This document shows, piece after piece, positions 5,813 to 35,850 of a stretch of 35,850 bases of DNA. The stretch is taken from positions 1-35,850 of IMG/VR virus record IMGVR_UViG_3300025646_000158; one strand, written 5' to 3'. Each line of letters opens with the position of its first letter. Within the stretch, counting starts at the first letter, position 1. Under the pieces are notes generated by a model. That model was not told the origin of the DNA, searched no databases, and saw nothing but the letters and a program-made list of their open reading frames with translations. The stretch is from a virus. The position numbers and the translations under genes were made by a program.

Positions 5813-6858
5813 GCTCGTCCTTTCGTGTTGTTGGGATCAATCGGATCCACCGTAGTGGTGTTGAACACAGCATTGGGAGAGAGATCGTAACTTCCCCATT
5901 GTGCTAGTAGTTCTGCCATGTCTGCGGCATCAACCTTTCCATCTCCGTTGAAATCACCAATCTCTGGATTCACTCCCCACGATGCCATGAAGATCGCCAG
6001 ATCCTCTCCGTCCACTACACCGTCTTGATTGAGATCCTGCGGAATGGCTGTCATCTTGTCGTAGGAAACGCTGTATCCGTGTGGAGCCAACTTCTCGTTG
6101 ATATTGTCGATTGTCTCTTGAGGGAATGAAGACCCACCGAACATGAGTCCAAGAAGCAAGGTTTCTCCCTTGTCATTCACCACGAAAGCGGGTGAACCCG
6201 AATCGCCAACGAACACCGCAGGATCTCCCGTGGTAGCATATGCTCCATCGTTCACTCCATCTAGACTGGGGTCGCTGTTCCAACCGATGAATTTCCCATC
6301 AACGAATCTTGCCTGTTTGAAGAGCCTCTTGTAAATCTTGCCATTGGAGTCCTGAACCCAGATTGGAGTTCCACGGGGAATGTAGGCGGCATCCGCGATC
6401 TTGTTGTAGATGTAGAACTCACCCTCTGGAACAGGCTGATCGAACTCAAGAAGTGTCTGATCCCCACCGATGCTCAAGGTCACACCAACAACCTTGACTG
6501 TATGGCGAAGTCCTGACTTGCCAAGAAGAACGATACCACCCGTATTGTCATTTGGATCGGGTCTTGGACCACGGAAGTGCTGACAAACAATCATGTGCTT
6601 TGGAGAAACCAAAACACCACCGTAGGTGCAACAATTCCAGAAGTTTACATTCTCACGGTCAAATTCAAGACCATAAGCAGATCCAGCCAGAGTACAGAAA
6701 TGTCGATTTCTTGCCCGACATCCTGAGAAGTCAGCAATCCCATATGCTTGGCAATCTGGATTATAACCAATAGGTGCTGCTGTTTGAGTTGTCGATGCTA
6801 CTCGGTTGTATTTGTATAGATCGTGAACCTGTGAATTATAGTATTTCAGTATTGCCAT
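5809..6858 (-). CDS. Trypsin-like serine protease with C-terminal dockerin repeats
   Basis: 349 aa. The N-terminal about 270 residues carry a chymotrypsin-fold pattern: GGVLVSPKHMIVCQHF (catalytic His94 in place of the usual AAHC), GGDQTLLEFD (Asp133) and VGDSGSPAFV (Ser220 in GDSGSP). All three triad residues are therefore in order. Residues 275-322 hold two EF-hand-like dockerin repeats (DLNQDGVVDGEDLAIFMASWG and DFNGDGKVDAADMAELLAQWG), each with a D-x-N-x-D-G loop and ending in WG. No signal peptide is visible, so it is probably delivered as a virion component or released at lysis. It could process virion proteins or degrade host surface proteins. It starts within the 3' end of speD, with AGAGGA as ribosome-binding site, and overlaps the 690-aa gene by ATGA. 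Dockerins of this style are common in planctomycete proteins. Confidence 0.85.
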   Translation of the reverse strand: MAILKYYNSQVHDLYKYNRVASTTQTAAPIGYNPDCQAYGIADFSGCRARNRHFCTLAGSAYGLEFDRENVNFWNCCTYGGVLVSPKHMIVCQHFRGPRPDPNDNTGGIVLLGKSGLRHTVKVVGVTLSIGGDQTLLEFDQPVPEGEFYIYNKIADAAYIPRGTPIWVQDSNGKIYKRLFKQARFVDGKFIGWNSDPSLDGVNDGAYATTGDPAVFVGDSGSPAFVVNDKGETLLLGLMFGGSSFPQETIDNINEKLAPHGYSVSYDKMTAIPQDLNQDGVVDGEDLAIFMASWGVNPEIGDFNGDGKVDAADMAELLAQWGSYDLSPNAVFNTTTVDPIDPNNTKGRA

Positions 6859-13261: not shown

Positions 13262-14622
13262 CAGAAGTTCCAATTCTCAAATTTGTTTTGCTTCTTTTGA
13301 TTTTCAGTTGGTACAGGAATTACAGTATTATCTGAACTATTATTGATGTCGTAGAGTTTCATCTTCGCACGATTAATGTTCTGAAGAAACTTACGATTTG
13401 ATGCTGCGTCATTGTAGCGATTCTTCAACTGCTTGACCATGATCTGATTCAGTTCTGCCAATTCCTCAGTAGAGATCAGCGCAAACATGAAGTCAGCAGT
13501 CGCGGGAAGACCGAACGATTCAGAAGTATCTTCAAGACCAATATCTGTATTTGAATATCCAGATCGTGTTGTCTGAGTTGCGGAGAAGATCGGTACTCCA
13601 TACTCCACAGCAAGTCCACGAAGTTCTTCAGCGATGGACTTGATGTAGGTGTAGGAGTTTGTATTTCCTCCTGCCTTCATTCTTGCCGAAGCACAGATGT
13701 TCAGATAATCAATGAAGATGATATCTGGTTTGAACTTTCGCTTGAGTGCCAATTCATCAAGAAGAAATCGGAAATGATTGACATTCGCGGTAGCAGTTGG
13801 ATATTCCTTGATAATCAACTTACCAGTAACACCAGCACTGAGATTCTTGATCTTACTTTCATATACAACCTGTGGAAGATGACGAAGATAATCAAGAGTC
13901 ACATCAAGAAGATTCGCGTCAATTCGTTCTGCGATTCTCTCCTCTGCCATCTCGCATGTGATGTAGAGAACATTGTAATTCTTCTTCAGACAATTGGCAG
14001 CATGGTGGCAAAGGAACAGAGACTTACCAACACCCGTACCTGCCATGACGATATTCAAAGTCTTGGTAGGTGTACCACCACCAGTGATCTGATTGAAGTT
14101 CTCCAGATCAAATGGAATTCGCTTCTCTACCGTGTGATAGAAATCATATCGTCTCTGGTAGTCTTCAATGTAATCGTGACCGATGTGAACATCAAAGGAA
14201 ATAGCGAGTGCCTTTGAAAGAATATCAGGAATTGATCCCTGGGATTGCTGCGACTTTCCATCAATGATCTGAATGGATTCCATGATGGCATTATAGACTG
14301 CCTTCTCCTTACAGAAGTTTTCAGTCTCACTTAGCAACCATTCTTGATCGCATGGATCCTTGGTCGTAGAAATTTCCTCAAGGACTTCTCCGACCCTCTT
14401 CATCTCTTCCTGACCGATTGCCTTGTTCTTATCAAGAATGATGTACAGTGCCTCCTTGGTGGGTAGGTTGCTGTACTTCAGAATAAAGTCATGAATTCCC
14501 TCAAAAACAAATCGCACTGACCGATCATGAAAATACTCCCTCTTGAGGAAGGGAGTAACTTTTCGTGAATATGATTCGTTTTTGAGAAGATTGTGTAGGA
14601 TGATCTTCTCAATGTCTGTCAT
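13261..14622 (-). CDS. 41: Replicative DNA helicase, T4 gp41/DnaB family
   Basis: 453 aa, near T4 gp41 (475 aa). An N-terminal helical domain (1-170) is followed by a RecA-like ATPase: Walker A GTGVGKS (195-201), an [14 protein letters not shown] segment typical of DnaB helicases, Walker [14 protein letters not shown], then TQTTRSGY and the [11 protein letters not shown] end. It is a hexameric 5'-3' helicase that loads on the lagging strand and works with gp61. The start is ATGA-coupled to the end of uvsX and its end is TGATG-coupled to primase. Confidence 0.93.
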
Positions 14623-15668
14623 TCGGTATCCTCTTCACTAGACGGTTCTACTCCACCGTAACTGAACTCATTATACACTGCCTTGTCCAGTAGGTCAAGT
14701 ACTTCCTTGGTGAAGTATTTTTCAGGATTATCGTAAATTGTCTTTTCAAAAACCTTTGTTCCATCGGGCAATTCTACTCTTGTTGAATTCTTCTTAAATA
14801 GACCCGACTTAATGGCAATATCCACAAGACCATAATATGGATCAATGCCTGTGTCATAATTAAGACGGACATCTACCACCTTATTTTCTTTTGTAAACCT
14901 TCCCTTGTAAAGTTTACAATGAATAATATTACCAACAATTGCTCCTGCCGAATCCTTATCCTTCTTCTTTGAAAGATAGAGAATTGTAGATGCTGCGTAC
15001 TTAAGACCAGTACCACCACCCATCTCTGACATCGGAACATAAGCACCGACAACTTGATAAGTGTGGTTGGTCATGATCATTGGAATCTTCGCGATACCCA
15101 ACTTCACAGTAAGAACGCGGAAGGTTGACTTGACAACCTGTGCGCGAGTCATGTCGCGTGTTTCCTTGCCATCGGCAGTATCAGTCATCTCCTTGGTAGT
15201 TGACAACATTCCAAGAGAATCAAGAACGATCATGGTTGGTTTACGATCTTCCTTGTCAAGTTCAAGATACTTGTCTACGATTGTGATTGCCTGATGTCGG
15301 AACTCCTCAATCGTAGAGACTGGAAATACTGCCACTCTCTTTGGATCAATTCCACGATCCTTGAACATCTCCGACGTGACTGCTTGCTCTGAATCAAAGT
15401 AAAGAACGACAGCATCAGGGTTGTCATTGAGGAACTTAGAAACGATTCCAAGAGTAAAGTAAGTCTTACCAGTTGAAGATTCACCTGCGAGTGCGAGAAT
15501 CTTGTTATTCGGCAGACCACCATAGATTGATGCTGAGAGTAGACCATTCAGCATGTAGCATCCTGTGTCTACAAACCCACCAACATCACTTCCCTCAAGA
15601 CCATCGTCTACAATGGAAGCATATTTATTACCTGAAGTCTTTACCAACGACGATAAAAAATCACTCAT
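14619..15668 (-). CDS. uvsX: UvsX-type RecA-like recombinase
   Basis: 349 aa from the ATG at 15668, chosen because AAAGGAAT lies just upstream; an ATG six codons earlier overlaps that site. Walker A is GESSTGKT (62-69), Walker B is [12 protein letters not shown], and [21 protein letters not shown] matches the loop region of UvsX/RecA. It is slightly shorter than T4 UvsX (391 aa) and ends in an acidic tail (PSSEEDTE) as RecA proteins do. It catalyses strand exchange for recombination-dependent replication and repair. The order polymerase-uvsX-helicase-primase agrees with T4 relatives. Confidence 0.93.
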
Positions 15669-15678
15669 AATATTCCTT

Positions 15679-16791
15679 TCATCCAAATAGGGATTCTAGT
15701 GTTGCTTTTCTTTCGTGCGACCAACCGATTGTATCTAGGATATTGCTCAGTGGGTCAATAAATGCTTTTTCAAATTGTGTTTTGTAATCAATAAACTTAT
15801 CAAGACCAAACTCTTTTGGAAGAACATTGGGAAAGGCAATTACCTGATCCTCTCCTTTGTTTCCTCCAAGTGGATTTGGTTTCTTCAAGTGAAGATACTT
15901 GATCTTATCACCTTCAATGATATCGCGATACTTCTTGTCCAACTTGAATCGCGAGAGATAGTGATTATAGATCAGAGATCCCTTCACATGCATCGGAGTT
16001 GACTTGCGGTAGATTGTCAACTTATCGCGATACTTGTTTAATCCATTCACCGAACGAGGAAATGCGATCTCTTCGGGAGACAGGGAATAGAATTCAGTTT
16101 TACACTTATCCACAAACTCAATCATCTCATCTTCCGTGCTGTTGAGAATGAGATCAATTGCTTCCTTCAGTCTCTTGCGAACTATCTCTGGAGTTGAAGA
16201 ACGAGTCGTTTCAATTCCCATGATTTTGAGTTTTGGTTCAGAATATCTTACTCCTTCTGAATCCAGAACATTCAACATGTACCGTTTCTTCGCAGTCCAG
16301 ATTCCCTTGTCGGCAATCACCTCTCTACCCATGAACATCTTCTGATCATAGGCATTCATGATATCTGAGAGTTCTTCAAACTTCTTTTGAATGAATGGGA
16401 GAATGATCTTCTCACATGCGGTGTCAATGTAATTGATCTTCTTGTCTTTTGGAGCATTCGCTACAAACTTCTTCACCAGACAGTTCAAATTCAGATAGAC
16501 AGAATCTGTATCGGACGCAATGACATAATCAACACCATCCGTTCCCACGGTAGTGTTGATGAAGTCGTTCAACTTTTGACCAATCCACTGAATTGCCAAC
16601 TGACCAGAAAGTGTAATTGCCTCTGCCAATTCGGTGGAATAATATCGGAAGTATTCGTTTCCAATCGCACCATAAGCAGAATTCAGTTGAATCTTTCTTA
16701 CAAGTTGGAAATTATGATACTTGGCAATGTCTTTTTCTGTTTGCTCTTTGAGAGCGAAAAGTTGTTCATCTGTCAGTTTGGTAAGGGTCAC
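15679..16791 (-). CDS. 43B: DNA polymerase (family B, gp43), C-terminal part of a split gene
   Basis: 370 aa, GTG start overlapping the upstream stop as TAGTG. It contains polymerase motif B ([15 protein letters not shown], 32-45) and motif C (ASDTDSVY, catalytic D94 and D96), the KKRYMLN region and the thumb. It ends in KATLESLFG, equivalent to T4 gp43's KASLDFLFG clamp-binding tail. The exonuclease domain and motif A are missing; they are on the gene at 19693-21174, 2.9 kb upstream in the same operon. Together the halves total 863 residues (T4 gp43 is 898), so little is lost. The cut is in the fingers domain between motifs A and B. The two chains must associate to form the active site. Confidence 0.93.
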
Positions 16792-17096
16792 TAATCTGCT
16801 CCATGCTTGATGGGAAGTTTATCAGAAAAGTAGGGAATGTCAAGATCTTTCTTTACCAGAACTGGACCTGCATCTCCATACTTTATCCAATACCCCCGTC
16901 GTATAAGTTCACACATTGCATTGAATTGGTTTATAGTAAATAAGTCCTTGGCATAATCCTTTTCATGAAGGACTATTTCAAGGACTTTATTTTCTATATC
17001 TTTATACCAACTTGTTAGGTAAAAGTATTCGGAATAGCTTATAATCGCCTGCTCCGTCAACCTCTTCAGAACCATCATTTCATATTCAATAGGCAT
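16791..17096 (-). CDS. Hypothetical protein inside the split-polymerase island
   Basis: 101 aa, starting three bases after the Dps-like gene's stop and ending in a TAGTG overlap with the polymerase C-terminal gene. It is rich in Tyr/Leu/Lys with a helical N-terminal two thirds and a short C-terminal segment (WIKYGDAGPVLVKKDLDIPYF). I do not recognise it. It is the gene immediately before the polymerase fragment, so it may be coupled to its translation. Confidence 0.65.
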   Translation of the reverse strand: MPIEYEMMVLKRLTEQAIISYSEYFYLTSWYKDIENKVLEIVLHEKDYAKDLFTINQFNAMCELIRRGYWIKYGDAGPVLVKKDLDIPYFSDKLPIKHGAD

Positions 17097-17098
17097 AA

Positions 17099-17458
17099 TC
17101 AGTGTAGAGTGAGTAGATACTTGGTCTTATTCAATAGTGCCAACATCTCGTCACGAATATTTAAAAGGTCAGTATCTTCTTCTTTGAGATCATTTGGAAG
17201 TTCATTGACTAGATAATTTTCAAAATACTTTATTACTTGCATTGGATGTGCTTTTTCAAATCCAAAGAGTTCTAAAGTTCTTTTTGCTTCTGTATCCTTT
17301 CCGTAGATTCCCATATAGGTTTCAACGAAAGTGTCAATTAAAGCGTCCAATCCTTCATATGCATTTCCAAGTGCTTTGTGTTCCGCATATGAAGCAGTTT
17401 GCCAGTGATGAATTCTTAATTGATTCTGTAAAGTCAAAAGTTTAGTAATACACTCCAT
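17099..17458 (-). CDS. Dps/ferritin-like four-helix protein (DUF5856-like)
   Basis: 119 aa. The N-terminal LLTLQNQLRIHHWQTASYAEHKALG followed by LDALIDTFVETYMG matches the first two helices of small phage Dps-like proteins, with the HHWQT and ID-FVE pattern I associate with DUF5856. Ferritin-fold metal sites (His and Glu in these helices) are plausible, but the chain is too short for a full Dps and its role is unknown. It may bind DNA or metals, or protect DNA during infection. It has its own TATAAATA box 19 bases upstream and a GGAGA ribosome-binding site, so it may be expressed late as well as from the operon. Confidence 0.7.
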   Translation of the reverse strand: MECITKLLTLQNQLRIHHWQTASYAEHKALGNAYEGLDALIDTFVETYMGIYGKDTEAKRTLELFGFEKAHPMQVIKYFENYLVNELPNDLKEEDTDLLNIRDEMLALLNKTKYLLTLH

Positions 17459-17476
17459 AGATCTCTCCTATAGATG

Positions 17477-17484
17477 TATTTATA
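17477..17484 (-). promoter_or_regulatory. T4-type late promoter (TATAAATA)
   Basis: An exact TATAAATA, followed by GGAGA and the ATG at 17458. It overlaps the 3' end of the preceding small ORF and could add late expression of the Dps-like gene and of the polymerase C-terminal half downstream. Confidence 0.65.
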
Positions 17485-17728
17485 ATTTCTTTTTCCAGAC
17501 TCCATCCAAAATAATACCAGAATCGGTAATATCCTCCTGGGTGAACTCTGAGACTTTATAATCGGGTTTGCGCTTAAGACTCTTTGCCAGTTCGTTCATC
17601 TCGTCGCAGCATTCTAGCGCATTTCTTTTCTTTTTGTAGACCAAAGCACCCTTGAATGACTCATTGTTCTTACTGAAATTATCTTCCACAAAAAGATCAG
17701 ATGGGGTCTTTACCGCGTAGTACTTCAA
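17480..17728 (-). CDS. Small hypothetical protein
   Basis: 82 aa with a TTG start that overlaps the upstream stop as TTGA; the first in-frame ATG is about 43 codons later. It is charged, Lys-rich and ends in WKKKL. Not recognised. The compact overlap supports it as a gene. Confidence 0.55.
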   Translation of the reverse strand: MKYYAVKTPSDLFVEDNFSKNNESFKGALVYKKKRNALECCDEMNELAKSLKRKPDYKVSEFTQEDITDSGIILDGVWKKKL

Positions 17729-17976
17729 AGTCCAAGTTCCTCATCAAGTTCAGAAAGACGATCCATTGCCGCGTTTCTCTTTTCTTCTTGTATCTCATCA
17801 AAGCAGTCCCAACCACGCGATTCCGCAATCGCACGGGGATCACCGTACTTTGGGTTATCAAACATCATGGAGTTAAGACGTGCTTCATTTCTACACGCAA
17901 TCCGCCTTGCTTCGTCGCGTTCTGCGGTACGAAACTCCAACTCTTGAACTAATCGTGAAAATGGATCGTCGCTCAC
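17725..17976 (-). CDS. Small helical protein, paralogue of its upstream neighbour
   Basis: 83 aa, GTG start overlapping the upstream stop as GTGA. It contains TAERDEARRIAC and, near the C-terminus, AESRGWDCFDEI. Both motifs recur in the upstream gene (TEERDEARRSCC and MKSRGWDCFKED), so the pair arose by duplication. The N-terminal half is predicted coiled-coil. Function unknown. Confidence 0.65.
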   Translation of the reverse strand: MSDDPFSRLVQELEFRTAERDEARRIACRNEARLNSMMFDNPKYGDPRAIAESRGWDCFDEIQEEKRNAAMDRLSELDEELGL

Positions 17977-18308
17977 TTGCCGTCCTCCTTGAAGCAGTCC
18001 CAGCCACGGGATTTCATGTACTTCATGGCGATATTGTAAAAACGACCGCTCTCCATGCCATCTTTGGTGTCGGCTCCATCAACAATCGCTGCGAACTCAC
18101 AGCAAGAACGCCTCGCCTCGTCGCGTTCTTCGGTGAGTTCTAGAACCTTTTCCGAACGCATATCGCACATGTGGATACGCTCGCTCAACTCATTGCGGAG
18201 GAGTTCGATTGCTCCATATGCCTCGGAGATCAATCGCACAATTTCGTCGGGAAGATCGGTGCGCTTGGTTGCACAACGGAGTTCGTATGCGAGATCTGAA
18301 GTTTTCAT
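17973..18308 (-). CDS. Small helical protein with ERDEARR and SRGWDCF motifs
   Basis: 111 aa from the ATG at 18308, two bases after the 3' end of a tRNA gene. An earlier in-frame start would read through the tRNA (giving 'GSNPTRAI', the T-arm) and is rejected. The middle is helical (IHMCDMRSEKVLELTEERD). The C-terminal SRGWDCFKEDGK and the ERDEARRSCC stretch are shared with the next gene. Function unknown. Confidence 0.65.
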   Translation of the reverse strand: MKTSDLAYELRCATKRTDLPDEIVRLISEAYGAIELLRNELSERIHMCDMRSEKVLELTEERDEARRSCCEFAAIVDGADTKDGMESGRFYNIAMKYMKSRGWDCFKEDGK

Positions 18309-18310
18309 AA

Positions 18311-18383
18311 TAGCGCGAGTGGGATTCGAACCCACACTGTGCTGGACTTGAATCAGCTGACTCTGCCGTTGGTCTACCGCGCC
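18311..18383 (-). tRNA. tRNA with apparent anticodon CAA (Leu by anticodon; identity uncertain)
   Basis: 73 bases fold as a cloverleaf: acceptor GGCGCGG/TCGCGCT (two G-U pairs) with discriminator A, a 3-bp D-stem with GG in the loop, anticodon stem GCTGA/CCAGC with an A-C mismatch next to the loop, loop TTCAAGT, a 5-base variable loop and T-arm GTGGG TTCGAAT CCCAC. CAA would be Leu, but a Leu tRNA should have a long variable arm and A at position 37; here the arm is short and position 37 is G. The HNH gene's last codons lie in its 5' end. Confidence 0.75.
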
Positions 18384-18820
18384 GTGTTTTTATTTTTACC
18401 TTTCCAATTATCAGTCAAAGAATGACAATTTGGACAAAGTAATTGTAAGTTATCGTATTCATTATTTGTTCTATTGCCGTCTTTATGATGAACTTCTAGT
18501 GGAATAACAGATTCACGCCACTCGGTCAATCCACATAATTCACATTTATGTGTTCTTTCTGATATTAGATGTTTTTTGGAACTCTTGTAGGAGTTATATT
18601 GCGACCAATCTTTTAGTTGTTGTCCTTTACTCCACCCCTGTCCAGTCCAATGAGAAGTATCTATTTGATATTCTTGTAAATATTTTTTTACCACATGATA
18701 TGATCCACCAGCTTTATTACTATAACCAAGTTTTTCTAACATTTGTGCTATAGAAAAAACTTGATTTGCATATTCCTGAAATTTATCTTTACCTAATTGT
18801 TTTATTCTATTGTATCTCAT
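18374..18820 (-). CDS. HNH endonuclease, probable homing enzyme in the split-polymerase island
   Basis: 148 aa from the ATG at 18820, with GGAG eight bases upstream; longer starts run into a tRNA. The N-terminal about 80 residues resemble the DNA-binding part of phage HNH enzymes (MLEKLGYSNKAGGSYHVVKK, then IDTSHWTGQGW). The HNH domain has CELCG, PLEVHHKDGNRTNNEYDNL and LCPNCHSLT, that is a zinc-binding Cys set, the catalytic HH-x-DG and the final N/H residues. Such enzymes nick or cut DNA and spread their own gene. Its position between tRNAs inside a split polymerase suggests it caused or exploited the split. Its final codons GCG CGG TAG are also the 5' end of the adjacent tRNA. Confidence 0.88.
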   Translation of the reverse strand: MRYNRIKQLGKDKFQEYANQVFSIAQMLEKLGYSNKAGGSYHVVKKYLQEYQIDTSHWTGQGWSKGQQLKDWSQYNSYKSSKKHLISERTHKCELCGLTEWRESVIPLEVHHKDGNRTNNEYDNLQLLCPNCHSLTDNWKGKNKNTAR

Positions 18821-18862
18821 AGCAGACGCTCCTATACTATATATATTTCGTCTGCTTTTAAG

Positions 18863-18947
18863 TGGGATTGGTGGGATTCGAACCCACAATGTTTCTTATG
18901 TGAGGCATTTTAAGTGCCTTGCGTTTCGCCAGTTTCGCCACAATCCC
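18863..18947 (-). tRNA. tRNA-Leu, anticodon TAA
   Basis: 85 bases: acceptor GGGATTG/CAATCCC with discriminator A, anticodon stem AGGCA/TGCCT with loop CTTAAAA (anticodon TAA, A37), an extended variable arm of about 15 bases as expected for Leu, and T-arm GTGGG TTCGAAT CCCAC. It reads UUA/UUG codons. Confidence 0.92.
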
Positions 18948-18951
18948 GTAA

Positions 18952-19022
18952 CTACCCCGCCTAGATTCGAACTAGGAAAAAGAGAACCAAAATCTCCTGT
19001 GATACCGTTTCACCACGGGGTA
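18952..19022 (-). tRNA. tRNA-Gln, anticodon TTG
   Basis: 71 bases: acceptor TACCCCG/CGGGGTA with discriminator G, D-stem GTG/CAC, anticodon stem GGAGA/TCTCT with loop TTTTGGT (anticodon TTG), a 4-base variable loop and T-arm CCTAG TTCGAAT CTAGG. It reads CAA/CAG. Confidence 0.92.
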
Positions 19023-19028
19023 ACTTTA

Positions 19029-19118
19029 TTATGCTCTTGCCAACTTACGAGCTCTTCGCTTACGACTTCCCAACTTACGTCTACGACCAAATTTACGATG
19101 TGGTGTTTTTCTACTCAT
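19029..19118 (-). CDS. Tiny Arg/Lys-rich basic protein (29 aa)
   Basis: 29 aa (MSRKTPHRKFGRR, then RKLGSRKRRARKLARA), about half Arg/Lys. AGGA, located at the end of the TrmH-family gene, is correctly spaced eight bases before the ATG. The protein contains three CGT-AAG (Arg-Lys) pairs. The composition is like a small ribosomal protein or a nucleic-acid-binding peptide. Its place between an RNA methyltransferase and a tRNA cluster suggests an RNA- or ribosome-related role. No family can be named. Confidence 0.6.
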   Translation of the reverse strand: MSRKTPHRKFGRRRKLGSRKRRARKLARA

Positions 19119-19123
19119 AATAA

Positions 19124-19669
19124 TTATCCTACTGTGTTTGAAACGAGTGAGTACATTGCGATTCCACTCGCAGTACCTACATTCAGACTTCTGACACTTC
19201 CGTATTGCTTAATATATAGCAGATCATCACAGATGTCAAGAAGTTCCTTTGGAATTCCAAATTGTTCCTGTCCAAGAACAAGAACATAATGAGCGTTTGA
19301 GTTCCAACTATATTCATCAATTGGAAACGAACCAGGAATGTTATCCATTCCTATAATTCTGACTGTACCGTAGGTTCCTTTGAGGATCTTGATTTCGTTC
19401 TCAAGATCCTCAAAGGTACGGCAATGTCCAAAATGCGTATAGTGATGAGTTCCAACCGTACCACGGCGGTCGTACTTCTTTGAACCGTAAAGAATTACCT
19501 TCTTCGCAAGGAACGCATTGGCATTGCGAATAACTGTAGCAATGTTGAAATCATTATAAAGATTGCTACAAACAACAGAAAAATTATTCCGTCTTGTATC
19601 CAAGTCCGCAAGTATCGCTTCATGCTTCCAGTAGTGGTAATGGTCAATCACGTTACGGGTTTCCGACAT
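19124..19669 (-). CDS. SpoU/TrmH-family RNA 2'-O-methyltransferase
   Basis: 181 aa from the ATG at 19669; a longer TTG start would lie inside the promoter. All three SPOUT signatures are present: motif 1 FNIATVIRNANAF (Asn/Arg), motif 2 HYVLVLGQEQFGIPKELL (the Glu-x-x-G-x-P segment), and motif 3 LNVGTASGIAMYSL, which form the trefoil-knot AdoMet site. These enzymes methylate ribose in tRNA (for example Gm18 or position 34) or rRNA. It is immediately upstream of three tRNA genes, so phage tRNAs are an attractive substrate, although host RNA is equally possible. A perfect sigma-70 promoter ends six bases before the ATG. Confidence 0.88.
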   Translation of the reverse strand: MSETRNVIDHYHYWKHEAILADLDTRRNNFSVVCSNLYNDFNIATVIRNANAFLAKKVILYGSKKYDRRGTVGTHHYTHFGHCRTFEDLENEIKILKGTYGTVRIIGMDNIPGSFPIDEYSWNSNAHYVLVLGQEQFGIPKELLDICDDLLYIKQYGSVRSLNVGTASGIAMYSLVSNTVG

Positions 19670-19675
19670 GCGTAT

Positions 19676-19704
19676 ATTATACCACAAATGGGTCAGTCTG
19701 TCAA
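19676..19704 (-). promoter_or_regulatory. Perfect consensus sigma-70 promoter at the polymerase split
   Basis: TTGACA (19704-19699), a 17-base spacer and TATAAT (19681-19676) on the minus strand, an exact match to consensus. The -35 box lies in the final codons of the polymerase N-terminal gene. Standard geometry puts +1 at 19669, the A of the TrmH-family gene's ATG. Confidence 0.9.
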
Positions 19705-21174
19705 GCCCCTACGGCGCAATTCCTCGTTGATGTCTTCGAGCATTTTCTTTGACTCAATCATTTTGTTTTTGAACATTTTACGATCTTTGTACATGCTGTC
19801 CATGAGTTCAGGAAGAAATCCCCGAATATCTTTTCGGTATGTGGTTCCGTTGGCAGCAGTTGACAGATTCTTCTTCTTATTATCTTCAAGAATTTCTGTA
19901 CATACGCTAGATTGCTTCAACAGACCCTCTGGGGAAATTGAAGCACGAATTCCATCATCTGTCATCGTCTCTGGAGAGATATTATACTGCATGATGAGAT
20001 GTGGATACAGAGAGTTCAAGTCAAAACTCACCACCCAGTCATGGAATCCAACGATTGGTTCCTTGACATATGCACCCGCATATTGCTCATTCTTTCTTGA
20101 TTTCTTCTTTGGTGGAATCGCAATTCCTCTCTGAAGCAGATCGTTGTAGATAATGACATCCCATGTACGAACCTGAGAAAAGACATCTGAATAATTCACA
20201 CCCGCAGAATATGCAAGTGCGATTGCGAGTTCAATCAGACGAAGTTTATCTTCCAGTTTCTGAACCAGTTCAACGTCGCGAATATTATAGGCAATGAACT
20301 TCTGAAAGTCCTTCTTGTAGAACTCTGTAATACTTTCGAACTCTGCATATGAGAGTTTCTTCTCTCCAAGTTCTACATACGAAATATGATTCAGACTGTA
20401 CGATTCTTGATTCGTATATGTAAAGGTCTTGTAGACCTCGTAATAGTCAAGAGTGGAAATGCCGATCAGATCGAACGCACTCTCTTCCTTACCCTTGCGA
20501 TTGATTCTCTTTTCTTTGATAATACCCCAAGGAGAAAGCAACTTGACATACTTTCGTCCAAGCACCTTTCCGATGCGATTTACAAGATAGGGAATGTCAA
20601 AGAAACGAATGTTCCAACCCGATATGACATCAGGATAATTGTCGCTGAAATACTTGACAAAATCTCTGAGAAGTTTTGCTTCTTCCTGATACTCAAAGAC
20701 CTTGATGTCTTCTTCGGTGGAGAATGTACCCAAGCAGAATGTTGCTTTTCCTGTTCTAGTTGACGATACAGTGATTGCAAGGACTTCCTCTTCTGGATTG
20801 TCAATGGACGGAAACCCGTTCTCTGACGCAGTTTCAATGTCGATGTACATGATGTCGATCTTGGAGAAGTCATAGTTATGCGTACCACCGTAGTGCTTTG
20901 CTAGAAACTGATACTCTTGTTGAATCTCACCGTGAATTTCAAATCCAGGAATTGTCGCATACTTCTCAACGAACTCTTTGTATTGTTCGTGATTATCAAA
21001 CCTCATCTCCATCAGAGGATCACCAATGATGGATTTGAGATCGCATCTTCCACTTGACGGAAGATAAACAGAAGGACTGTGTTCCTTCTCAGAATACACA
21101 GTCTTTCCGTTTTCATCCTTCTCAGCAAGAAGGATCCCTTTATAGTTGTAATATGCGTTTGTGTAAAATCTCAT
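19693..21174 (-). CDS. 43A: DNA polymerase (family B, gp43), N-terminal part of a split gene
   Basis: 493 aa, starting in an ATGA overlap with the upstream gene. It holds the 3'-5' exonuclease motifs: Exo I MYIDIETASENG (D112, E114), Exo II GWNIRFFDIPYL (N188, D193) and Exo III YNIRDVELV (Y296, D300). Polymerase motif A FDLNSLYPHLI (D385) follows, and the chain ends at RRRGLTD in the fingers region. Motifs B and C are on the gene at 15679-16791. No intein-like sequence is present at the junction, so the parts are expected to assemble non-covalently. Split gp43 genes are known in some T4 relatives, typically with homing endonucleases nearby, as here. Confidence 0.93.
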   Translation of the reverse strand: MRFYTNAYYNYKGILLAEKDENGKTVYSEKEHSPSVYLPSSGRCDLKSIIGDPLMEMRFDNHEQYKEFVEKYATIPGFEIHGEIQQEYQFLAKHYGGTHNYDFSKIDIMYIDIETASENGFPSIDNPEEEVLAITVSSTRTGKATFCLGTFSTEEDIKVFEYQEEAKLLRDFVKYFSDNYPDVISGWNIRFFDIPYLVNRIGKVLGRKYVKLLSPWGIIKEKRINRKGKEESAFDLIGISTLDYYEVYKTFTYTNQESYSLNHISYVELGEKKLSYAEFESITEFYKKDFQKFIAYNIRDVELVQKLEDKLRLIELAIALAYSAGVNYSDVFSQVRTWDVIIYNDLLQRGIAIPPKKKSRKNEQYAGAYVKEPIVGFHDWVVSFDLNSLYPHLIMQYNISPETMTDDGIRASISPEGLLKQSSVCTEILEDNKKKNLSTAANGTTYRKDIRGFLPELMDSMYKDRKMFKNKMIESKKMLEDINEELRRRGLTD

Positions 21175-21485
21175 TTTTTATCTTTAAGAAATGCTGCCAG
21201 TAGCACCGAATAATTGATCAGGTCTACCAGAGTATCATACACCGATTCGTCCTCCACGTCAAGTTTTCCTTTTGAAGCAAAGGAAGAAAGTCGTGACATT
21301 TTATCGGTCATGCGAACTAAAAATGCCTGTTCGGTCGAGCAAATTCCTAAAGATTCAGCGCGAGTAAAATTAGCAAATGGATTTGCGCCATCGCTTCCAG
21401 CGTAATCTGAATTTTTCTTTTTCATCAAATCCAAAGCAAAGGTACACATTTCCTTGTGCATATTAAAAAGTTCTTCACGGTTCAT
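21171..21485 (-). CDS. MazG-like/DUF1599 nucleotide-handling protein
   Basis: 104 aa from the ATG at 21485, with GGAG six bases upstream. An all-helical protein with KKKNSDYAG, then PFANF, VRMTDKMSRL and VEDESVYDTLVDLINY. The acidic E-S-x-x-D-T-x-x-D-L-x-N-Y pattern matches the MazG-like DUF1599 (nucleotide-modification-associated) family, which is thought to bind or hydrolyse nucleotides. Standing between the DNA methyltransferase and the polymerase, it may clean the dNTP pool or act on modified nucleotides. It is ATGA-coupled to the polymerase N-terminal gene. Confidence 0.75.
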   Translation of the reverse strand: MNREELFNMHKEMCTFALDLMKKKNSDYAGSDGANPFANFTRAESLGICSTEQAFLVRMTDKMSRLSSFASKGKLDVEDESVYDTLVDLINYSVLLAAFLKDKK

Positions 21486-21486
21486 G

Positions 21487-22827
21487 TTATTCTCCAAAAA
21501 GTGATTCTAGTGTAGCAGGTTTATTTGAAAGGTCAAATCCATTCTTTGAGAAGCACCAGACATTCTCAATGTATGTCGTGACCAAAAACTTCTTCAGTTC
21601 TTCTGTATCTATATCCTTTGGTCGTTGCTTGATTCGCATACCAATTTGCCCATCAAACTTACCACCAAGTTCAAGGATATGATCTACCATCTGATCGCAT
21701 GTCTTGAATCTCTTTGACTTGATTTGTGGATCCATAATATTGATCATCATTGATCCATTGTCCTTCAGAGATTCGTAACAAGCAGTCAGTACTGGTTTGA
21801 AGAAATCCTCCCACCACTTCTCATAATCAGAGTAACGAAACCATGATTGCTTCCAGTCGTCTCCACCTTCGTCGTATAGTTCAGTAGAAAAGTATGGAGG
21901 AGATGTGAAGATACAGTCATACTTGTTCTTCTTGATCTCGTCAAGAATATCTTCTGCGGGAGCATTGTATGCTGTTACTGTCTTTCCAGATCTTCCGACA
22001 CAACGGAATGCTTCATAGAAATGGTCCTTGACCTGAACCTGAAAGAATTCAATCTCTGGTTCTTCTCCACTCAACAGTTTCTCATATTGCTTACATTGTT
22101 CTTTATATACAGCAAATACACTTGGGTTGGGATCTGTTCCAACATAGTGCTTTGCTTTTGATGTATAGAACCCTGCGAGACGATCACCCCAACCCATGCT
22201 GAAGTCAAGGACTCTCATCTCGTCATTTCTTACACGACTGTTTACGAAATCATAAATTGACTTCGCAACATGTGGTTTAAACTGAGTCGCAACATATGCT
22301 CCAAGACGGAAAGAACCACGAAGAGTAATCGGAGTAATTCCATCATTGTCAAGCCTCCAGAATGTCCAGTTCATCTTCTTCAGAAGATCTGGTGAATACC
22401 AGTATTCACTCGGAGACGGAAACCCATGCGATCCACAGTCATAGCGATTTCTCTGTTGAAAGAAATTACTGATGTCATTGTGATAATGACCGTAGAAGAT
22501 TACAAACTTTCCACAGTCTCTGAATGGATACTTGTAGTCTGTATACTTCTCAGTGACTTCACCCGCATCTGCCATGATGAAATCGTTGTGTGTCTTTGAC
22601 TTTAGATCATAGAACTTTCGCTTTACACCATCGTCAAAATCAATCTTTCGGTATGGAAAGAGAGGAAACTTGGTCCCAATGTATTCAGCAAGACCTTCCT
22701 TGATTTCTTGCTTAGTAAACTTGGAATTGAATTCTTCCCAATCCTTACCAATGATTGTTGGAACACCTTCTTCATCAGCGAACTGTGTGATGAAGTCTAC
22801 TACTTCTTGCGTTTTTGTCTGTGTCAT
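21487..22827 (-). CDS. SAM-dependent DNA amino-methyltransferase with clamp-binding-like tail
   Basis: 446 aa from the ATG at 22827, two bases after the dUTPase stop. AdoMet motif I is VLDFSMGWGDRLAG (207-219) with TDPNP for the adenosine-binding acidic residue. The catalytic motif IV is CIFTSPPYF (TSPPY at 308-312), the S/D-P-P-Y type that methylates exocyclic amino groups (N4-cytosine or N6-adenine). An N-terminal about 190-residue region may recognise target or substrate. The last residues, ATLESLFGE, repeat the polymerase's C-terminal ATLESLFG, which in T4 gp43 binds the sliding clamp. No restriction partner is nearby, so this is likely genome self-protection or regulation. Confidence 0.88.
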   Translation of the reverse strand: MTQTKTQEVVDFITQFADEEGVPTIIGKDWEEFNSKFTKQEIKEGLAEYIGTKFPLFPYRKIDFDDGVKRKFYDLKSKTHNDFIMADAGEVTEKYTDYKYPFRDCGKFVIFYGHYHNDISNFFQQRNRYDCGSHGFPSPSEYWYSPDLLKKMNWTFWRLDNDGITPITLRGSFRLGAYVATQFKPHVAKSIYDFVNSRVRNDEMRVLDFSMGWGDRLAGFYTSKAKHYVGTDPNPSVFAVYKEQCKQYEKLLSGEEPEIEFFQVQVKDHFYEAFRCVGRSGKTVTAYNAPAEDILDEIKKNKYDCIFTSPPYFSTELYDEGGDDWKQSWFRYSDYEKWWEDFFKPVLTACYESLKDNGSMMINIMDPQIKSKRFKTCDQMVDHILELGGKFDGQIGMRIKQRPKDIDTEELKKFLVTTYIENVWCFSKNGFDLSNKPATLESLFGE

Positions 22828-22828
22828 T

Positions 22829-23350
22829 CTATACTCCAGTAGATCCGAAACCACCTGTACGATCACCTTTTAGTTGTGGCCTCTCATCTATGTAGCTGAA
22901 ATTAACACGGGGTTCGCAAGCAACCATCTCTGCTTGAGCAATTCTTAGTCCACTATAGATACGAATCTTTTCCTGAGAATTATTGTATAGAGGAATAAAA
23001 ACTTCATTGGTATAATCTGCGTCAATTATGCCAACAGAGTTAATTAGATTCAATCCACTCTTCGTGGAAAGACCCGAACGAGCATAAATTCGTATGTAAT
23101 GATTTTCTGGAATATCAAAAATTAAACCAGTCGGAACCATCACTCTCCACTCGGATGGAATTTCAATATAATTTCCAGCATCATCCTGTGATGCTAGAAT
23201 TTCTAATTTTTGATTTGTCTTGGAATATGCTAATATTGCAGACCCATATCCAATCGCAGATGACAGATCAAAACATGCTGCTTGCTCTGTCCCGTATGTT
23301 GGTTCAATGGCATAATGCCTGTGTTTAAAGATTTTTAGATTCATATTCAT
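22829..23350 (-). CDS. dut: dUTP diphosphatase
   Basis: 173 aa from the first ATG, or 171 aa from the second (23344), where the predicted transcript starts. The trimeric dUTPase motifs are in order: CFDLSSAIGY (motif 1), YARSGLSTKSGLNLINS (motifs 2-3, uracil-binding region), VGIIDADYTNEVFIPLYN, RIAQAEMV (motif 4) and the Gly-rich closing tail GDRTGGFGSTGV (motif 5). It cleaves dUTP to dUMP and PPi, keeping uracil out of DNA and feeding ThyX. It is the first gene of the early operon, behind a sigma-70 promoter. Confidence 0.93.
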   Translation of the reverse strand: MNMNLKIFKHRHYAIEPTYGTEQAACFDLSSAIGYGSAILAYSKTNQKLEILASQDDAGNYIEIPSEWRVMVPTGLIFDIPENHYIRIYARSGLSTKSGLNLINSVGIIDADYTNEVFIPLYNNSQEKIRIYSGLRIAQAEMVACEPRVNFSYIDERPQLKGDRTGGFGSTGV

Positions 23351-25155: not shown

Positions 25156-27720
25156 TTATCCTGTTACTGTCCATCCCTTTGCGGTTGCAATTGACGGATC
25201 GTCCGATGCAGTTCCCCAATTGTTTGTTACTGTGATTGTTTTTCCTGTCACCGTTGGCAGATTTGTATAAATTTCATTCAATTCGGTTGCTCCCAAAAAA
25301 CAACCAGTAACGGAAATATTCTGATTGAATCCAGTTGCTCTAACTCTGGATAATGATCTACAAGTATTGAATATACTAGAATACACAGTTGTACCCGATG
25401 ATCCTGAAAATTGGTAATCTGGTATTTCTTGTAAACTTGTACAGCCAGTAAACATACTTTGGTATCCAGTCGATATTATTGAACCCGTTCTAGGGGTTAA
25501 TTTTCCTAAAGATGGTGCTTTTCTTAAATTACTACAGTTACCAAATATTCCAGAAAAGTTACCACATACTTCAAAATTTAAATTTGGAATATTTGTCAAA
25601 GAAGAACAATTATAAAACATGTTATTAGCACTAGTAACTCTGCCCACATCCAAAAATGGCAAATGTTTCAACGAATAACAACTATTAAACATACTAGTAG
25701 CAGTCGTTACCAAACTAATGTCTAAATTAGGTAGTTCTTGTAAAGAACTACAACCTTGAAACATCTGAGTAGCAGTTGTTACCTTTGAAGTATCCAAATT
25801 TGGTATTCTTGTCAAAGAATAACAATTATAAAACATACCTGACATACTAGTAGCATTTGTTGTGATTAGTTCTTCAATTTCTGTAAGTTTCGAACACCCA
25901 TATAGCATAAAAAAACAATTAGTACTTTTCCCTACATTAAGTTTTCCTATTCTTCTCAAAGAAGAACAACCATAAAACATATTACTAGTATTGGTACAAT
26001 TGCAGAGATTGAGTTCGTTGATTGTTTCTAGGGAAAAACAATTATAAAACCCTCTGATTGCAGTTGATATTTTACTTCCATCAATAACAGGAATTTGAGT
26101 TAAAGAGTAACAGGAATCAAATGCGTTATCAAAACTAGACGGGGATGCTTGTGGAAGTATTGGAGATACTTCCAGTAAAGAATAGCAATTTCTGAATGTA
26201 CCACTCATGGTGGTAGCACTGCTAAAATCCACATTTATTTTTTGTAATTTATAACAATTAAAAAATGTTTGACTAAAATTAGTAACATTACTGGTATCCA
26301 TTTCTGGAAGTTTTAATAGTGCATAACAATAGGCAAATGTGTTACTTAAAATAGTCGCACTGCCAGTATACAAAGAAACTATTCTTTTCAAAGAAGTACA
26401 ATAATGAAATACACTAGAGTATGAAGTTACAGAATTGGTTCCTATCATTTCAAACTGTAAAAGATTATTATGATATGGAGGAGATCCCGATCCCATCTGT
26501 ATAGTAGTCAAATTTGGCGCAGATATTCTTATATCAAGCCATTTGGTAGTTTGATATGTACTAGTACTAAATCCTGACGGAAATTCATAATTTAAATCCA
26601 TAGTAGTCAGATTTTGTCCTGCTTGTGGAGTGACTGTAATGATAACGGATTTCATGTTATCATATGGATCATCCGCAATTGCAGCATATTCTGTGGTCGT
26701 ATATTGATGACTTACTGATGTACCCGATGCAACATTTTGAGGAGAACTTCCATCACCCCAATCAACGGTATATGCTCCTAGAAATCTTAAAGTAACCCAA
26801 TTACTATCTGTATCTGTAATACCATACAATCCTACAAACTTTTGTTCTCCTTCAGAAACACTGGGAAGAGGTTTCCATCCTCCTATGGTTACGGTTACTG
26901 GTGTGCTGAACAATTCAGATGTAGTTGCTGTAATCCCAGTAACAGCACCACCAGAGATGGTTGCGGTTGTTACTGTAACATGCTTATTTTCTCCAGAAAC
27001 ATGAACAGTTGGTACTTCAGTATATCCTGTTCCTCCACTAGTCACTGTGAAAGAACCGAGTGATCCAGTTACGGTTGCTGTTGCTGCTGCTCCTGTTCCT
27101 GGTCCACCAATACTTATGGTCGGCGCACCAGTATATCCAGTACCACAAACAACGGTACTTACACCAGAAGCCTGTCGTGTTCCCCCTCCACCAGAAAAAG
27201 TAACTGTTGGATTTGATGTATAATTACTTCCTACATTTGTAATTGTTACAGAAACGACTCTTCCGTTGTCTATTACTGCGGTTCCTGCTGCTCCAGATCC
27301 ACCCCCAGAAGAAAATGCAACCGTAGGAGCAGATGTATAACCTTCTCCTCCGTCTAGAATTATTACAGAAGAAACTGTGTATCTAAGAGTAATATTAGTA
27401 ATTGCTCCACCAGAAACTGTTGCGACTGCTGCTGCTCCTGATCCTCCTCCACCAGAAAAGGTGATCGTGGGAGCGACACCATACCCAGAACCACCAGCAT
27501 TTAAAGTTACGGCAGTTACAGATCCGTCTACAATATCTACCGTTGCTGTTGCTCCATTTCCGTTTCCATTTGATGGACGAATATATTCTTCTGTGTCATA
27601 TAATCCTCTGTCAGAAAATTTATTTCTGTTATAAATCTTTGAAGAAGAAATCATACCTTCTGATACATTTACAGCACGATTTACTCCAATATATCCGTTG
27701 TTTAATCTTTGCTTTCTCAT
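25156..27720 (-). CDS. Large tail-fibre protein with Gly-rich repeats, PKD-like domain and BspA-type leucine-rich repeats
   Basis: 854 aa from the ATG at 27720, which overlaps the previous stop as ATGA. Layout: an N-terminal MRKQRLNNGYIG segment; residues about 50-290 with repeated 'GGSGYGVAPTITFSGGGGSG' type units (about five); a PKD-like piece containing YTVDWGDGSSP; then from about 380 some twelve repeats of about 22-24 residues of the form MFxxCxSLxxIPxLDxSxVTxAT, the BspA/DUF285 leucine-rich repeat type. A C-terminal strand-rich cap follows. Such repeats form solenoids that bind proteins or glycans. I infer a receptor-binding fibre. Repeats of this kind are readily exchanged, and the sequence is AT-rich and Cys-rich compared with neighbours. 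Confidence 0.8.
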   Translation of the reverse strand: MRKQRLNNGYIGVNRAVNVSEGMISSSKIYNRNKFSDRGLYDTEEYIRPSNGNGNGATATVDIVDGSVTAVTLNAGGSGYGVAPTITFSGGGGSGAAAVATVSGGAITNITLRYTVSSVIILDGGEGYTSAPTVAFSSGGGSGAAGTAVIDNGRVVSVTITNVGSNYTSNPTVTFSGGGGTRQASGVSTVVCGTGYTGAPTISIGGPGTGAAATATVTGSLGSFTVTSGGTGYTEVPTVHVSGENKHVTVTTATISGGAVTGITATTSELFSTPVTVTIGGWKPLPSVSEGEQKFVGLYGITDTDSNWVTLRFLGAYTVDWGDGSSPQNVASGTSVSHQYTTTEYAAIADDPYDNMKSVIITVTPQAGQNLTTMDLNYEFPSGFSTSTYQTTKWLDIRISAPNLTTIQMGSGSPPYHNNLLQFEMIGTNSVTSYSSVFHYCTSLKRIVSLYTGSATILSNTFAYCYALLKLPEMDTSNVTNFSQTFFNCYKLQKINVDFSSATTMSGTFRNCYSLLEVSPILPQASPSSFDNAFDSCYSLTQIPVIDGSKISTAIRGFYNCFSLETINELNLCNCTNTSNMFYGCSSLRRIGKLNVGKSTNCFFMLYGCSKLTEIEELITTNATSMSGMFYNCYSLTRIPNLDTSKVTTATQMFQGCSSLQELPNLDISLVTTATSMFNSCYSLKHLPFLDVGRVTSANNMFYNCSSLTNIPNLNFEVCGNFSGIFGNCSNLRKAPSLGKLTPRTGSIISTGYQSMFTGCTSLQEIPDYQFSGSSGTTVYSSIFNTCRSLSRVRATGFNQNISVTGCFLGATELNEIYTNLPTVTGKTITVTNNWGTASDDPSIATAKGWTVTG

Positions 27721-27914
27721 CTGATGAACCAACCTCTCGCAGTTGTCTCTATTGTAGTTGATGTTGTATCGTATCTATTCACGATTACTTCATTATCCCA
27801 AAAAATATTAAATACATAAACCGTTGATTTTTCTGATGGTGGTTCTGGTGGTTCTGTAAGTTTTCTAGGAAATGAAGATGCAATCACACCGTGGGATTGA
27901 CTTGGAATTATCAT
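27717..27914 (-). CDS. Short fibre-cluster ORF ending in RGWFIR
   Basis: 65 aa, coupled on both sides by ATGA overlaps. It has a Pro-rich patch (TEPPEPPSEK), a strand segment (VYVFNIFWDNEVIVNRYD) and the end TTARGWFIR. The end and the following gene's start (MRKQRLNNGYIG) match the junction at 35086-35089 (RGWFFL, then [12 protein letters not shown]). It may therefore be the N-terminal domain of a fibre protein made as two chains, or joined by frameshifting. Confidence 0.6.
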   Translation of the reverse strand: MIIPSQSHGVIASSFPRKLTEPPEPPSEKSTVYVFNIFWDNEVIVNRYDTTSTTIETTARGWFIR

Positions 27915-30923: not shown

Positions 30924-32084
30924 TTAATAAATACCACCGTCTATATTGATGGTTCCTAAGTTATTTATATTTCCTTGAACTTCCAGATTTCCTGAAATTA
31001 TTACATTATCTGGAAGACCAATAATAATATTTGGACATGCCCCTGTGACCTCAATTTCACCAGTGGTTCCTAAAATATTTATATTTCCAGTACATCCGTT
31101 GATTGTTTCAACATAATTTGGAATATTTTCAAGAAATAAATCAGATCCTGAAATTATTTTTTCTGTTCCATCAGCAGCAAGAACTTTAACATTTCCGCTA
31201 ACTGAAGAGACAGTTGTAATTAAACCTGGAAAGTCTAGAACTGGTACTGGTATTTGAAGAAGATCGATCACTCGGATTAAATCCATAGTAGCACCAACTC
31301 CTTTGGATTGAACCATTAAATAGTCAGCACCAGAACCTACTGATTTAATTCTAATCGGCCTTCCACCGAATCTATAATTTATAGAATATTCATCAGAACC
31401 ATCAATATTTGAATATGTTAATCCATAACCAACTGGTATAAATTCACCAGTTGGTCCAGTAGCACCCGTTGGTCCCACATCTCCTTGTGGACCACGGACA
31501 TTTCCAATTGAATATTGACTTCCAATTACTCCATCTGGATCTATTTGTGAAATATAGAGTTCATCGCCTATGACTTCGGCAGCTGTATATCCATATCCAG
31601 AAATACCATCTGCTCCAGTTGGACCAGTATTTCCAGTTGATCCTTGAATTCCCTGATCTCCCTGTGGACCACGAACATTGCCAATTGAATAAGAAACACC
31701 AACAACACCATCTGGATCTATTTGTGAAATGTAAAGAAAATCACCATCTACAGTTGCTCCAGTATATCCATACCCAGAAATACCAGCTATGCCCTGTGGT
31801 CCAATTGGTCCTGTTGGTCCCGTTGGTCCAGTATTTCCTTGAATGCCTTGGATGCCCTGTGGACCCGAAAGTGCCACACCAGGATACGAAGGGTATAAAA
31901 CTGTAGAACTTAATGTTTTTTCAATTACTAAGTTTGTAACTGTTCCTGGAGTTACATTTATAGTAGAAGATGTTTGATTGTTTACTACTAAATTTGTTGT
32001 TTGTGGAAAAGAAGTAATAGATAACTCACCAACACCTTGGAATGCGGTAATTGTTAGCGTAGCTATATTACTTGCATCTGACAT
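30924..32084 (-). CDS. Collagen-like tail-fibre protein
   Basis: 386 aa, ATG directly after the upstream stop. An N-terminal beta domain (1-70), then three Gly-x-y collagen-like stretches ([19 protein letters not shown] and others) separated by a duplicated module of about 45 residues: GYGYTGATVDGDFLYISQID / GYGYTAAEVIGDELYISQID, each followed by SIGNVRGPQGD. The C-terminal 190 residues are beta-rich and end in GTINIDGGIY. Collagen-like triple helices give thin, stiff fibres. Confidence 0.8.
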   Translation of the reverse strand: MSDASNIATLTITAFQGVGELSITSFPQTTNLVVNNQTSSTINVTPGTVTNLVIEKTLSSTVLYPSYPGVALSGPQGIQGIQGNTGPTGPTGPIGPQGIAGISGYGYTGATVDGDFLYISQIDPDGVVGVSYSIGNVRGPQGDQGIQGSTGNTGPTGADGISGYGYTAAEVIGDELYISQIDPDGVIGSQYSIGNVRGPQGDVGPTGATGPTGEFIPVGYGLTYSNIDGSDEYSINYRFGGRPIRIKSVGSGADYLMVQSKGVGATMDLIRVIDLLQIPVPVLDFPGLITTVSSVSGNVKVLAADGTEKIISGSDLFLENIPNYVETINGCTGNINILGTTGEIEVTGACPNIIIGLPDNVIISGNLEVQGNINNLGTINIDGGIY

Positions 32085-35089: not shown

Positions 35090-35850
35090 AGGAAGAACCA
35101 TCCTCTCTTGTAGTCAACGATGGAGACAACCGCACCCGTCACTCCATTGACGGACTCGACATAATCACCGACTGGGCCTGTTGCTCCTGTTGCTCCTGTG
35201 GCTCCATTAGCACCATCGACACCCGTAGCACCTTGTGGTCCAAATGGTTCTACCCAATAGTCACCCACACCATCGGTGATGTATACGAATACATTTCCTG
35301 ATGTGGTGTTGAACCACATATCTCCATAAGTTGCTCCTGAAGGGGCAGAACCAGATGCGGTGAATGTTATTGCTCCATCAACACCAGTTGGACCTTGAAT
35401 CCCCTGAATACCTTGTTCTCCAGTAGCACCAGTTGGACCTTGAATTCCTTGAATTCCTTGATCGCCTTGAGGACCAGTAGCACCAGTTACACCTTGAATA
35501 CCTTGTTCACCAGTTGGACCCGTTGGTCCAGTTGCTCCAGTAGCACCAGTTGGACCTTGAATTCCTTGATCACCAGTTGGACCTTGAATTCCTTGATCGC
35601 CTTGAGGACCAGTTGCTCCAGTAGCACCAGTTGGACCTTGAATTCCTTGTTCTCCAGTAGCACCAGTTGGACCTTGAATTCCTTGTTCTCCAGTAGCACC
35701 AGTTGGACCTTGAATTCCTTGTTCTCCAGTAGCACCAGTTGGACCTTGAATTCCTTGTTCTCCAGTAGCACCAGTTGGACCTTGAATTCCTTGTTCTCCA
35801 GTAGCACCAGTTGGACCTTGAATTCCTTGTTCTCCAGTAGCACCAGTTGG
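35086..35850 (-). CDS. Collagen-like tail-fibre protein (5' end beyond the window)
   Basis: Open in one frame from the window edge to the stop at 35088-35086 (254 codons plus stop seen). From base 35850 it reads [12 protein letters not shown] repeats (Gly-x-y), then less regular collagen units, a spacer ([20 protein letters not shown]), [20 protein letters not shown], a further Gly-x-y run ([14 protein letters not shown]) and the end [20 protein letters not shown] then WFFL. The '[15 protein letters not shown]' unit is common in phage fibres. An internal ATG at 35319 is not the true start because the frame continues upstream. It is coupled by ATGA to the LamG-like gene, which may complete the fibre. 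Confidence 0.8.
35635..35850 (-). repeat. Six perfect 36-bp tandem repeats coding for collagen-like units
   Basis: Units start at 35635, 35671, 35707, 35743, 35779 and 35815, all identical, each encoding [12 protein letters not shown]. The array runs off the window end, so the true copy number is unknown. Degenerate copies continue down to about 35400. Confidence 0.95.

Follow-up and report, generated by a model that had tools for sequence, protein, structure and literature searches.

The replication block of an uncultured T4-like phage, available to us as a 35,850-base IMG/VR fragment (the window), raises the question of why a methyltransferase should end in the same peptide as the phage's own DNA polymerase. 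The first-pass annotation had pointed out this likeness, and both tails were present as it claimed, with the C-terminal half of the polymerase ending in KATLESLFG and the methyltransferase in ATLESLFGE, and with the octapeptide ATLESLFG common to the two; the interval 21487-21516 likewise consists of a stop codon, a Glu codon and the octapeptide. The annotation went on to propose that the enzyme has acquired tethering to the sliding clamp, citing the DNA similarity of the two tails, and of that proposal the resemblance of the tail to a T4-type clamp motif held, while the DNA similarity failed as a sign of acquisition. We consider it likely that the gene encodes a clamp-tethered orphan amino-methyltransferase with a genuine C-terminal clamp-binding motif, which modifies DNA at or just behind the replication fork. 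The sequence evidence is strong that the enzyme probably travels with the clamp, marking newly made phage DNA during copying, and it is from sequence that we infer physical gp45 binding, the DNA substrate, the target base, the coupling to replication and the biological purpose.

Features of the methyltransferase locus and the neighbouring replication genes (window coordinates)
Feature	Position	Strand	Basis or remark
UvsX/RecA-like recombinase, downstream of the polymerase C-terminal half	14619..15668	-	
Gene 43 DNA polymerase, C-terminal half	15679..16791	-	phrog_262 (E=1e-143); tblastn to cyanophage polymerases (54%)
Polymerase clamp-binding tail ATLESLFG	15682..15705	-	Equivalent of T4 gp43 SLDFLFG
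HNH endonuclease, between the polymerase halves	18374..18889	-	Profile search
Gene 43 DNA polymerase, N-terminal half	19693..21174	-	Profile searches
Nmad1 (DUF1599, nucleotide modification associated domain 1), next downstream gene in most relatives	21171..21485	-	Profile, relatives
Amino-methyltransferase gene, orphan	21487..22827	-	446 aa from ATG at 22827; ORF open to GTG at 22866
GGAGAA, Gly-Glu codons and Shine-Dalgarno of the downstream Nmad1 gene	21490..21495	-	Sequence
C-terminal clamp-binding-like tail ATLESLFGE	21490..21516	-	Sequence, homologue comparison
Variable linker NGFDLSNKP, last beta strand to tail	21517..21543	-	Entropy, pLDDT
dUTPase, upstream of the methyltransferase	22829..23350	-	phrog_135

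The methyltransferase matched the Pfam family N6_N4_Mtase above the cut-off (E=1.1e-9), and across 41 homologues the TSPPY motif was invariant and an SMGWGD-type SAM motif conserved, giving the protein the family profile, the catalytic (T)SPPY and the SAM motif of the N4-cytosine/N6-adenine amino-methyltransferases. The AlphaFold2 model has a SAM-methyltransferase fold (pLDDT 86) and is confident up to a beta strand at residues 417–427, with the last block falling to a pLDDT of 52 and containing a short helix at 440–444. A fold search with this model returned mostly generic SAM methyltransferases, with the RNA enzymes TrmN, Trm11 and METTL5 among the best, and since the fold is thus also like that of RNA methyltransferases it leaves the target class unassigned; it is the Pfam and PHROG profiles, and the tail itself, that point to a putative DNA enzyme. 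None of 50,697 phage records matched the family over most of its length, a search of solved structures by sequence gave no relative, and the genome collection contained no bacterial homologue, with patterns matching there and tblastn giving no relative. No restriction endonuclease adjoins the gene, which is flanked by the dUTPase and Nmad1 genes (the HNH enzyme lies between the polymerase halves), and the methyltransferase is therefore an orphan and not part of a restriction-modification system.

The replication block lies on the minus strand in the order dUTPase, methyltransferase, Nmad1, gene 43 N-terminal half, SpoU-type methylase, HNH endonuclease with small ORFs, gene 43 C-terminal half and UvsX/RecA-like recombinase, beyond which follow more replication and nucleotide-metabolism genes. 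Gene 43 (15679–21174) thus consists of two ORFs, and the gap of about 2.9 kb between them holds the HNH endonuclease and the SpoU-family methylase. The methyltransferase usually adjoins Nmad1 in lineages with a split polymerase, and in those with an unsplit polymerase (L107, L110, L114, L115, L119, L120 and L123) its frame has its start, possibly a TTG, among the last codons of gene 43, an arrangement that suggests translational coupling; in five of these groups (L107, L110, L115, L119 and L123) the methyltransferase is followed by what looks like the beginning of the recombinase. Elsewhere in the window, the protein at 5809–6858 has a C-terminal Dockerin type I domain (Pfam E=9.1e-7), which is unusual in a phage, and the protein at 3740–5812 has a similar-looking DLNGDGTTDSMDLSFILNNWE at its end, without a Pfam match. 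An 858-aa protein with BspA-type leucine-rich/DUF285 repeats (25156–27732) is possibly a host-binding structural protein, and two low-complexity stretches lie near the window end, one with collagen-like GPTG repeats (30924–32084) and the other an ORF built of a repeated 12-residue unit (35487–35843).

The tail is a property of the whole methyltransferase family. Among 55 distinct C-termini from the collected homologous loci, 53 fit the pattern [ST]L[EDVN]x(hydrophobic)(F/M/L), against 0.4 matches expected after shuffling of each tail, and the remaining two are near misses (TLQTLWT and NLERFFP). Within these 53 tails the Leu never varies and the Thr/Ser and Glu/Asp hardly do, but the 9–13 residues that separate the motif from the last conserved stretch (ENIWCFSK) are almost unconserved, with a column entropy of 2.1–3.5 bits just before the motif versus 0.66 (T), 0 (L) and 0.52 bits (E) at its first three positions. 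Together with the low pLDDT at the end of the model, these divergent residues describe a variable, flexible linker to the folded body. Tail-less homologues, which the annotation had named as the observation that would count against it, were not found (0/55 distinct C-termini, with two near misses). Outgroup methyltransferases from a Bacteroides phage and Twort-like Staphylococcus phages (25–38% partial identity) end at or just past the catalytic fold and have no such tail. The tail is old in this methyltransferase family. In 22/53 motif-bearing methyltransferase tails the terminal aromatic residue gives way to Met or Leu, unlike the polymerase tails, every one of which that was read keeps the Phe, and the clamp affinity of the methyltransferase tails may accordingly vary or be weak. 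We also matched the residue types of polymerase and methyltransferase ends, but the polymerase always finishes in F plus one residue and the methyltransferase varies, and no covariation is claimed.

Such a motif is rarely found at a protein end by chance. We counted [ST]L[ED]x[LIVMFY][FLMYI] followed by two residues at most across the 1124 proteins 60 aa or longer in the window and 16 relatives (17 records in all), where its generic density of 6.0e-5 per internal position corresponds to approximately 1.8e-4 per protein in the C-terminal register. There were 28 terminal matches versus about 0.2 expected, although several of the 17 records are near-identical and the 28 are not independent events. 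All 28 were polymerases or methyltransferases, with both proteins matching in a record if both genes are complete with the short tail, and one otherwise; the exact string TLExLFG had zero internal occurrences in the proteins of these records. The methyltransferase is the only non-polymerase protein in the genomes examined with a polymerase-type terminal clamp tail. As a control, a search of the same type in phage T4 with a slightly looser pattern recovered three established clamp-binding tails, those of gp43 (SLDFLFG), gp55 (SLDFLYEAND) and gp33 (TLDFLL), all of them named in the annotation, plus two chance matches, and T4 ligase has GLDFLFDAY at an internal position. The terminal S/T-L-D/E-x-hydrophobic-F/Y/L arrangement of the T4-type SCBM is therefore present in 53/55 methyltransferase termini as well as in the T4 control.

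The final codons of the gene have a second function, as the GGAGAA encoding Gly-Glu doubles as the Shine-Dalgarno sequence of the next gene, and the 'LFGE' ending is consequently a clamp signal only in part. A GGAG is located 6–7 bases ahead of the Nmad1 ATG in most relatives, lineages ending in LME supply the same GGAG at the same place through ATGGAG, and ILL and ILT endings overlap the start codon of the next gene. These observations would fit a conserved ending dictated by translation signals, with the peptide as a by-product, but we regard this as improbable, since the signals cover the last two or three residues only and TLExL lies upstream of them. Furthermore, LFI, LFV and NFF endings retain the motif and the Phe with the Shine-Dalgarno sequence outside the gene, L075 keeps ATLESLFGE despite a GGTGAA site and a different next gene, and the codons for Leu (CTA, CTT, TTA, CTG and others) and Phe (TTT, TTC) are free to vary synonymously, which indicates selection on the protein. 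Translation signals as the full explanation are thus refuted for the TLExL core and stand for the terminal residues, where on present comparisons the Shine-Dalgarno overlap accounts for the Gly-Glu and for the Phe-to-Met changes of other lineages; the core is, as we read it, held by protein-level selection and the last residues are a compromise. The sequence ACACTAGA, conserved in the methyltransferase tail codons, is scattered elsewhere and not located upstream of genes, and was rejected as a shared promoter-like signal.

The similarity between the two tails at the DNA level, which the annotation had taken to indicate acquisition, does exist (21/24 identical bases), but the quoted pairing was off by 3 bases, the true one being 15682–15705 versus 21493–21516. 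Given codon usage, the probability of at least 21/24 matches is 0.047, and there was no within-genome excess: over nine genomes, polymerase and methyltransferase tail DNA agreed at 15.2 of 21 bases within genomes versus 15.2 between genomes (permutation P = 0.58). The high identity in this genome would suit a recent, functionless transfer in which the methyltransferase gene took over a copy of the polymerase 3′ end, but such gene conversion was rejected for lack of a within-genome excess of identity, and as homologues down to ~50% identity retain the motif, the chance of it is practically negligible.

The annotation had also called for a clamp gene in this genome, and although the window, being a fragment, contains none, the clamp and its loader are encoded in relatives. 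We detected gp45 in seven of the relatives' fragments (G005, G006, G009, G019, G021, G028 and G030), along with gp44 in all seven and gp62 in all except G028. A profile of 27 gp45 homologues matched RB69 gp45 (1b77, 1b8h) at 6.7e-36 and T4 gp45 at 6.6e-32, and the predicted fold resembled the T4/RB69 gp45 structures 6drt, 1czd and 1b77 (TM 0.86–0.89), of which 6drt is the solved complex of T4 gp45 with the ligase peptide. The methyltransferase thus has the same peptide as the polymerase of its own genome, and the lineage encodes a gp45-type clamp, as seen in the relatives of this fragment. Overall, the tail behaves as a T4-type clamp-binding motif, being terminal, attached by an unconserved linker, matched by the polymerase, family-wide, missing from outgroups, and accompanied by gp45 and a loader in relatives. 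The clamp-binding C-termini of T4 gp43, gp55 and gp33 are freely interchangeable (PMC2988020, a review of late transcription), and since the methyltransferase has the polymerase's own tail, the simplest reading is that it would be a client of the same clamp.

The tail might also be imagined to bind a different partner, for instance a protease adaptor or the beta clamp of the host. The bacterial clamp motif is xLxLF, which the tail partly resembles; we nevertheless think another partner very unlikely, as the same tail is found on the phage polymerase, gp45 and its loader are both encoded within the phage lineage, and the residues are spaced as in T4 SLDFLF. Separately, in a 485 kb uncultured phage (L327, LR745208.1) we noted an open frame of 1014 aa that combines a TSPPY methyltransferase region with a Cys-rich zinc-finger-like stretch and ends in SSVLDLFS, like a bacterial beta-clamp motif; it could be an independent case. 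The gp55 homologues of these phages (L038:15357-15929, L044:1855-2442, L167:872-1447, L150:2872-3477 and L170:15496-16038) have Lys/Arg-run ends and not the T4 SLDFLYEAND, some of them with NYFD or NIDLFDGDVA after the run, and the gp33-like proteins have short LPFx ends; the clamp contact of late transcription in these phages may differ from that of T4.

The folded SAM-dependent body of the methyltransferase ends at the beta strand at residues 417–427, and the flexible linker would then present [ST]-L-[ED]-x-L-[F/M/L], the same type of peptide as the one attaching the phage polymerase to the gp45 trimer. The enzyme could occupy vacant sites of the three-fold clamp or clamps that stay behind on completed duplex, and tethering would keep it on newly replicated phage DNA, leading to modification soon after synthesis. 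This may serve for protection against host nucleases, or belong to a base-modification pathway hinted at by the neighbouring Nmad1 gene. A genuine clamp-binding motif could alternatively function in storage, stability or competition with the polymerase and not in modification of nascent DNA, and T4 alpha-glucosyltransferase offers a parallel, as it co-purifies with gp45, yet its share of glucosylation is mostly set by expression (PMC13216743). By that analogy, with a gp45 contact that is not the main determinant of glucosylation, tethering need not matter much for the methyltransferase (PMC13216743). However, all well-studied gp45 clients (polymerase, ligase and late transcription factors) act on DNA through their tails (PMC7892883, PMC2988020), and we judge a role confined to storage or competition rather unlikely. 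Should tethered modification be confirmed, DNA methylation would join the activities that phages couple to replication via the sliding clamp, and deletion of the nine-residue tail would provide a simple genetic handle on whether it is through early modification of nascent DNA that a phage overcomes restriction. The polymerase tails (always Phe) and the methyltransferase tails (Phe, Met or Leu) would also form a natural series of clamp-affinity variants.

The literature searched, which was non-exhaustive and had subscription papers outside its reach, contained no earlier case of a phage or bacterial DNA methyltransferase with a clamp motif. T4 Dam and other orphan phage amino-methyltransferases belong to the same orphan DNA amino-methyltransferase class, but T4 Dam has no clamp-like tail. 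The motifs of T4 gp43, gp55, gp33 and ligase gp30 are similar in being short hydrophobic-acidic sequences (S/T-L-D/E-x-L-F/Y/L) behind a flexible linker, and those of gp43, gp55 and gp33 are terminal, as in the methyltransferase; the differences are that the carrier here is a methyltransferase, and that the gp55 homologues of this lineage lack the tail and have basic-run ends. The nearest functional precedent is T4 alpha-glucosyltransferase, also a DNA-modifying phage enzyme associated with the clamp (PMC13216743), but it is an unrelated enzyme that transfers glucose onto hmC and does not methylate, and its sequence has no such C-terminal motif. DNMT1, also a DNA methyltransferase, is held on the sliding clamp PCNA, where it methylates new DNA (PMC9690074), but this eukaryotic enzyme acts on cytosine C5, binds by a PIP box and is unrelated in both fold family and clamp peptide. 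The clamp-tailed phage methyltransferase is distinct from both of these cases and apparently so far undescribed, and we lean towards the view that this T4-like lineage has a gp45-tethered DNA methyltransferase that modifies DNA in step with replication, as a phage counterpart of DNMT1 on PCNA.
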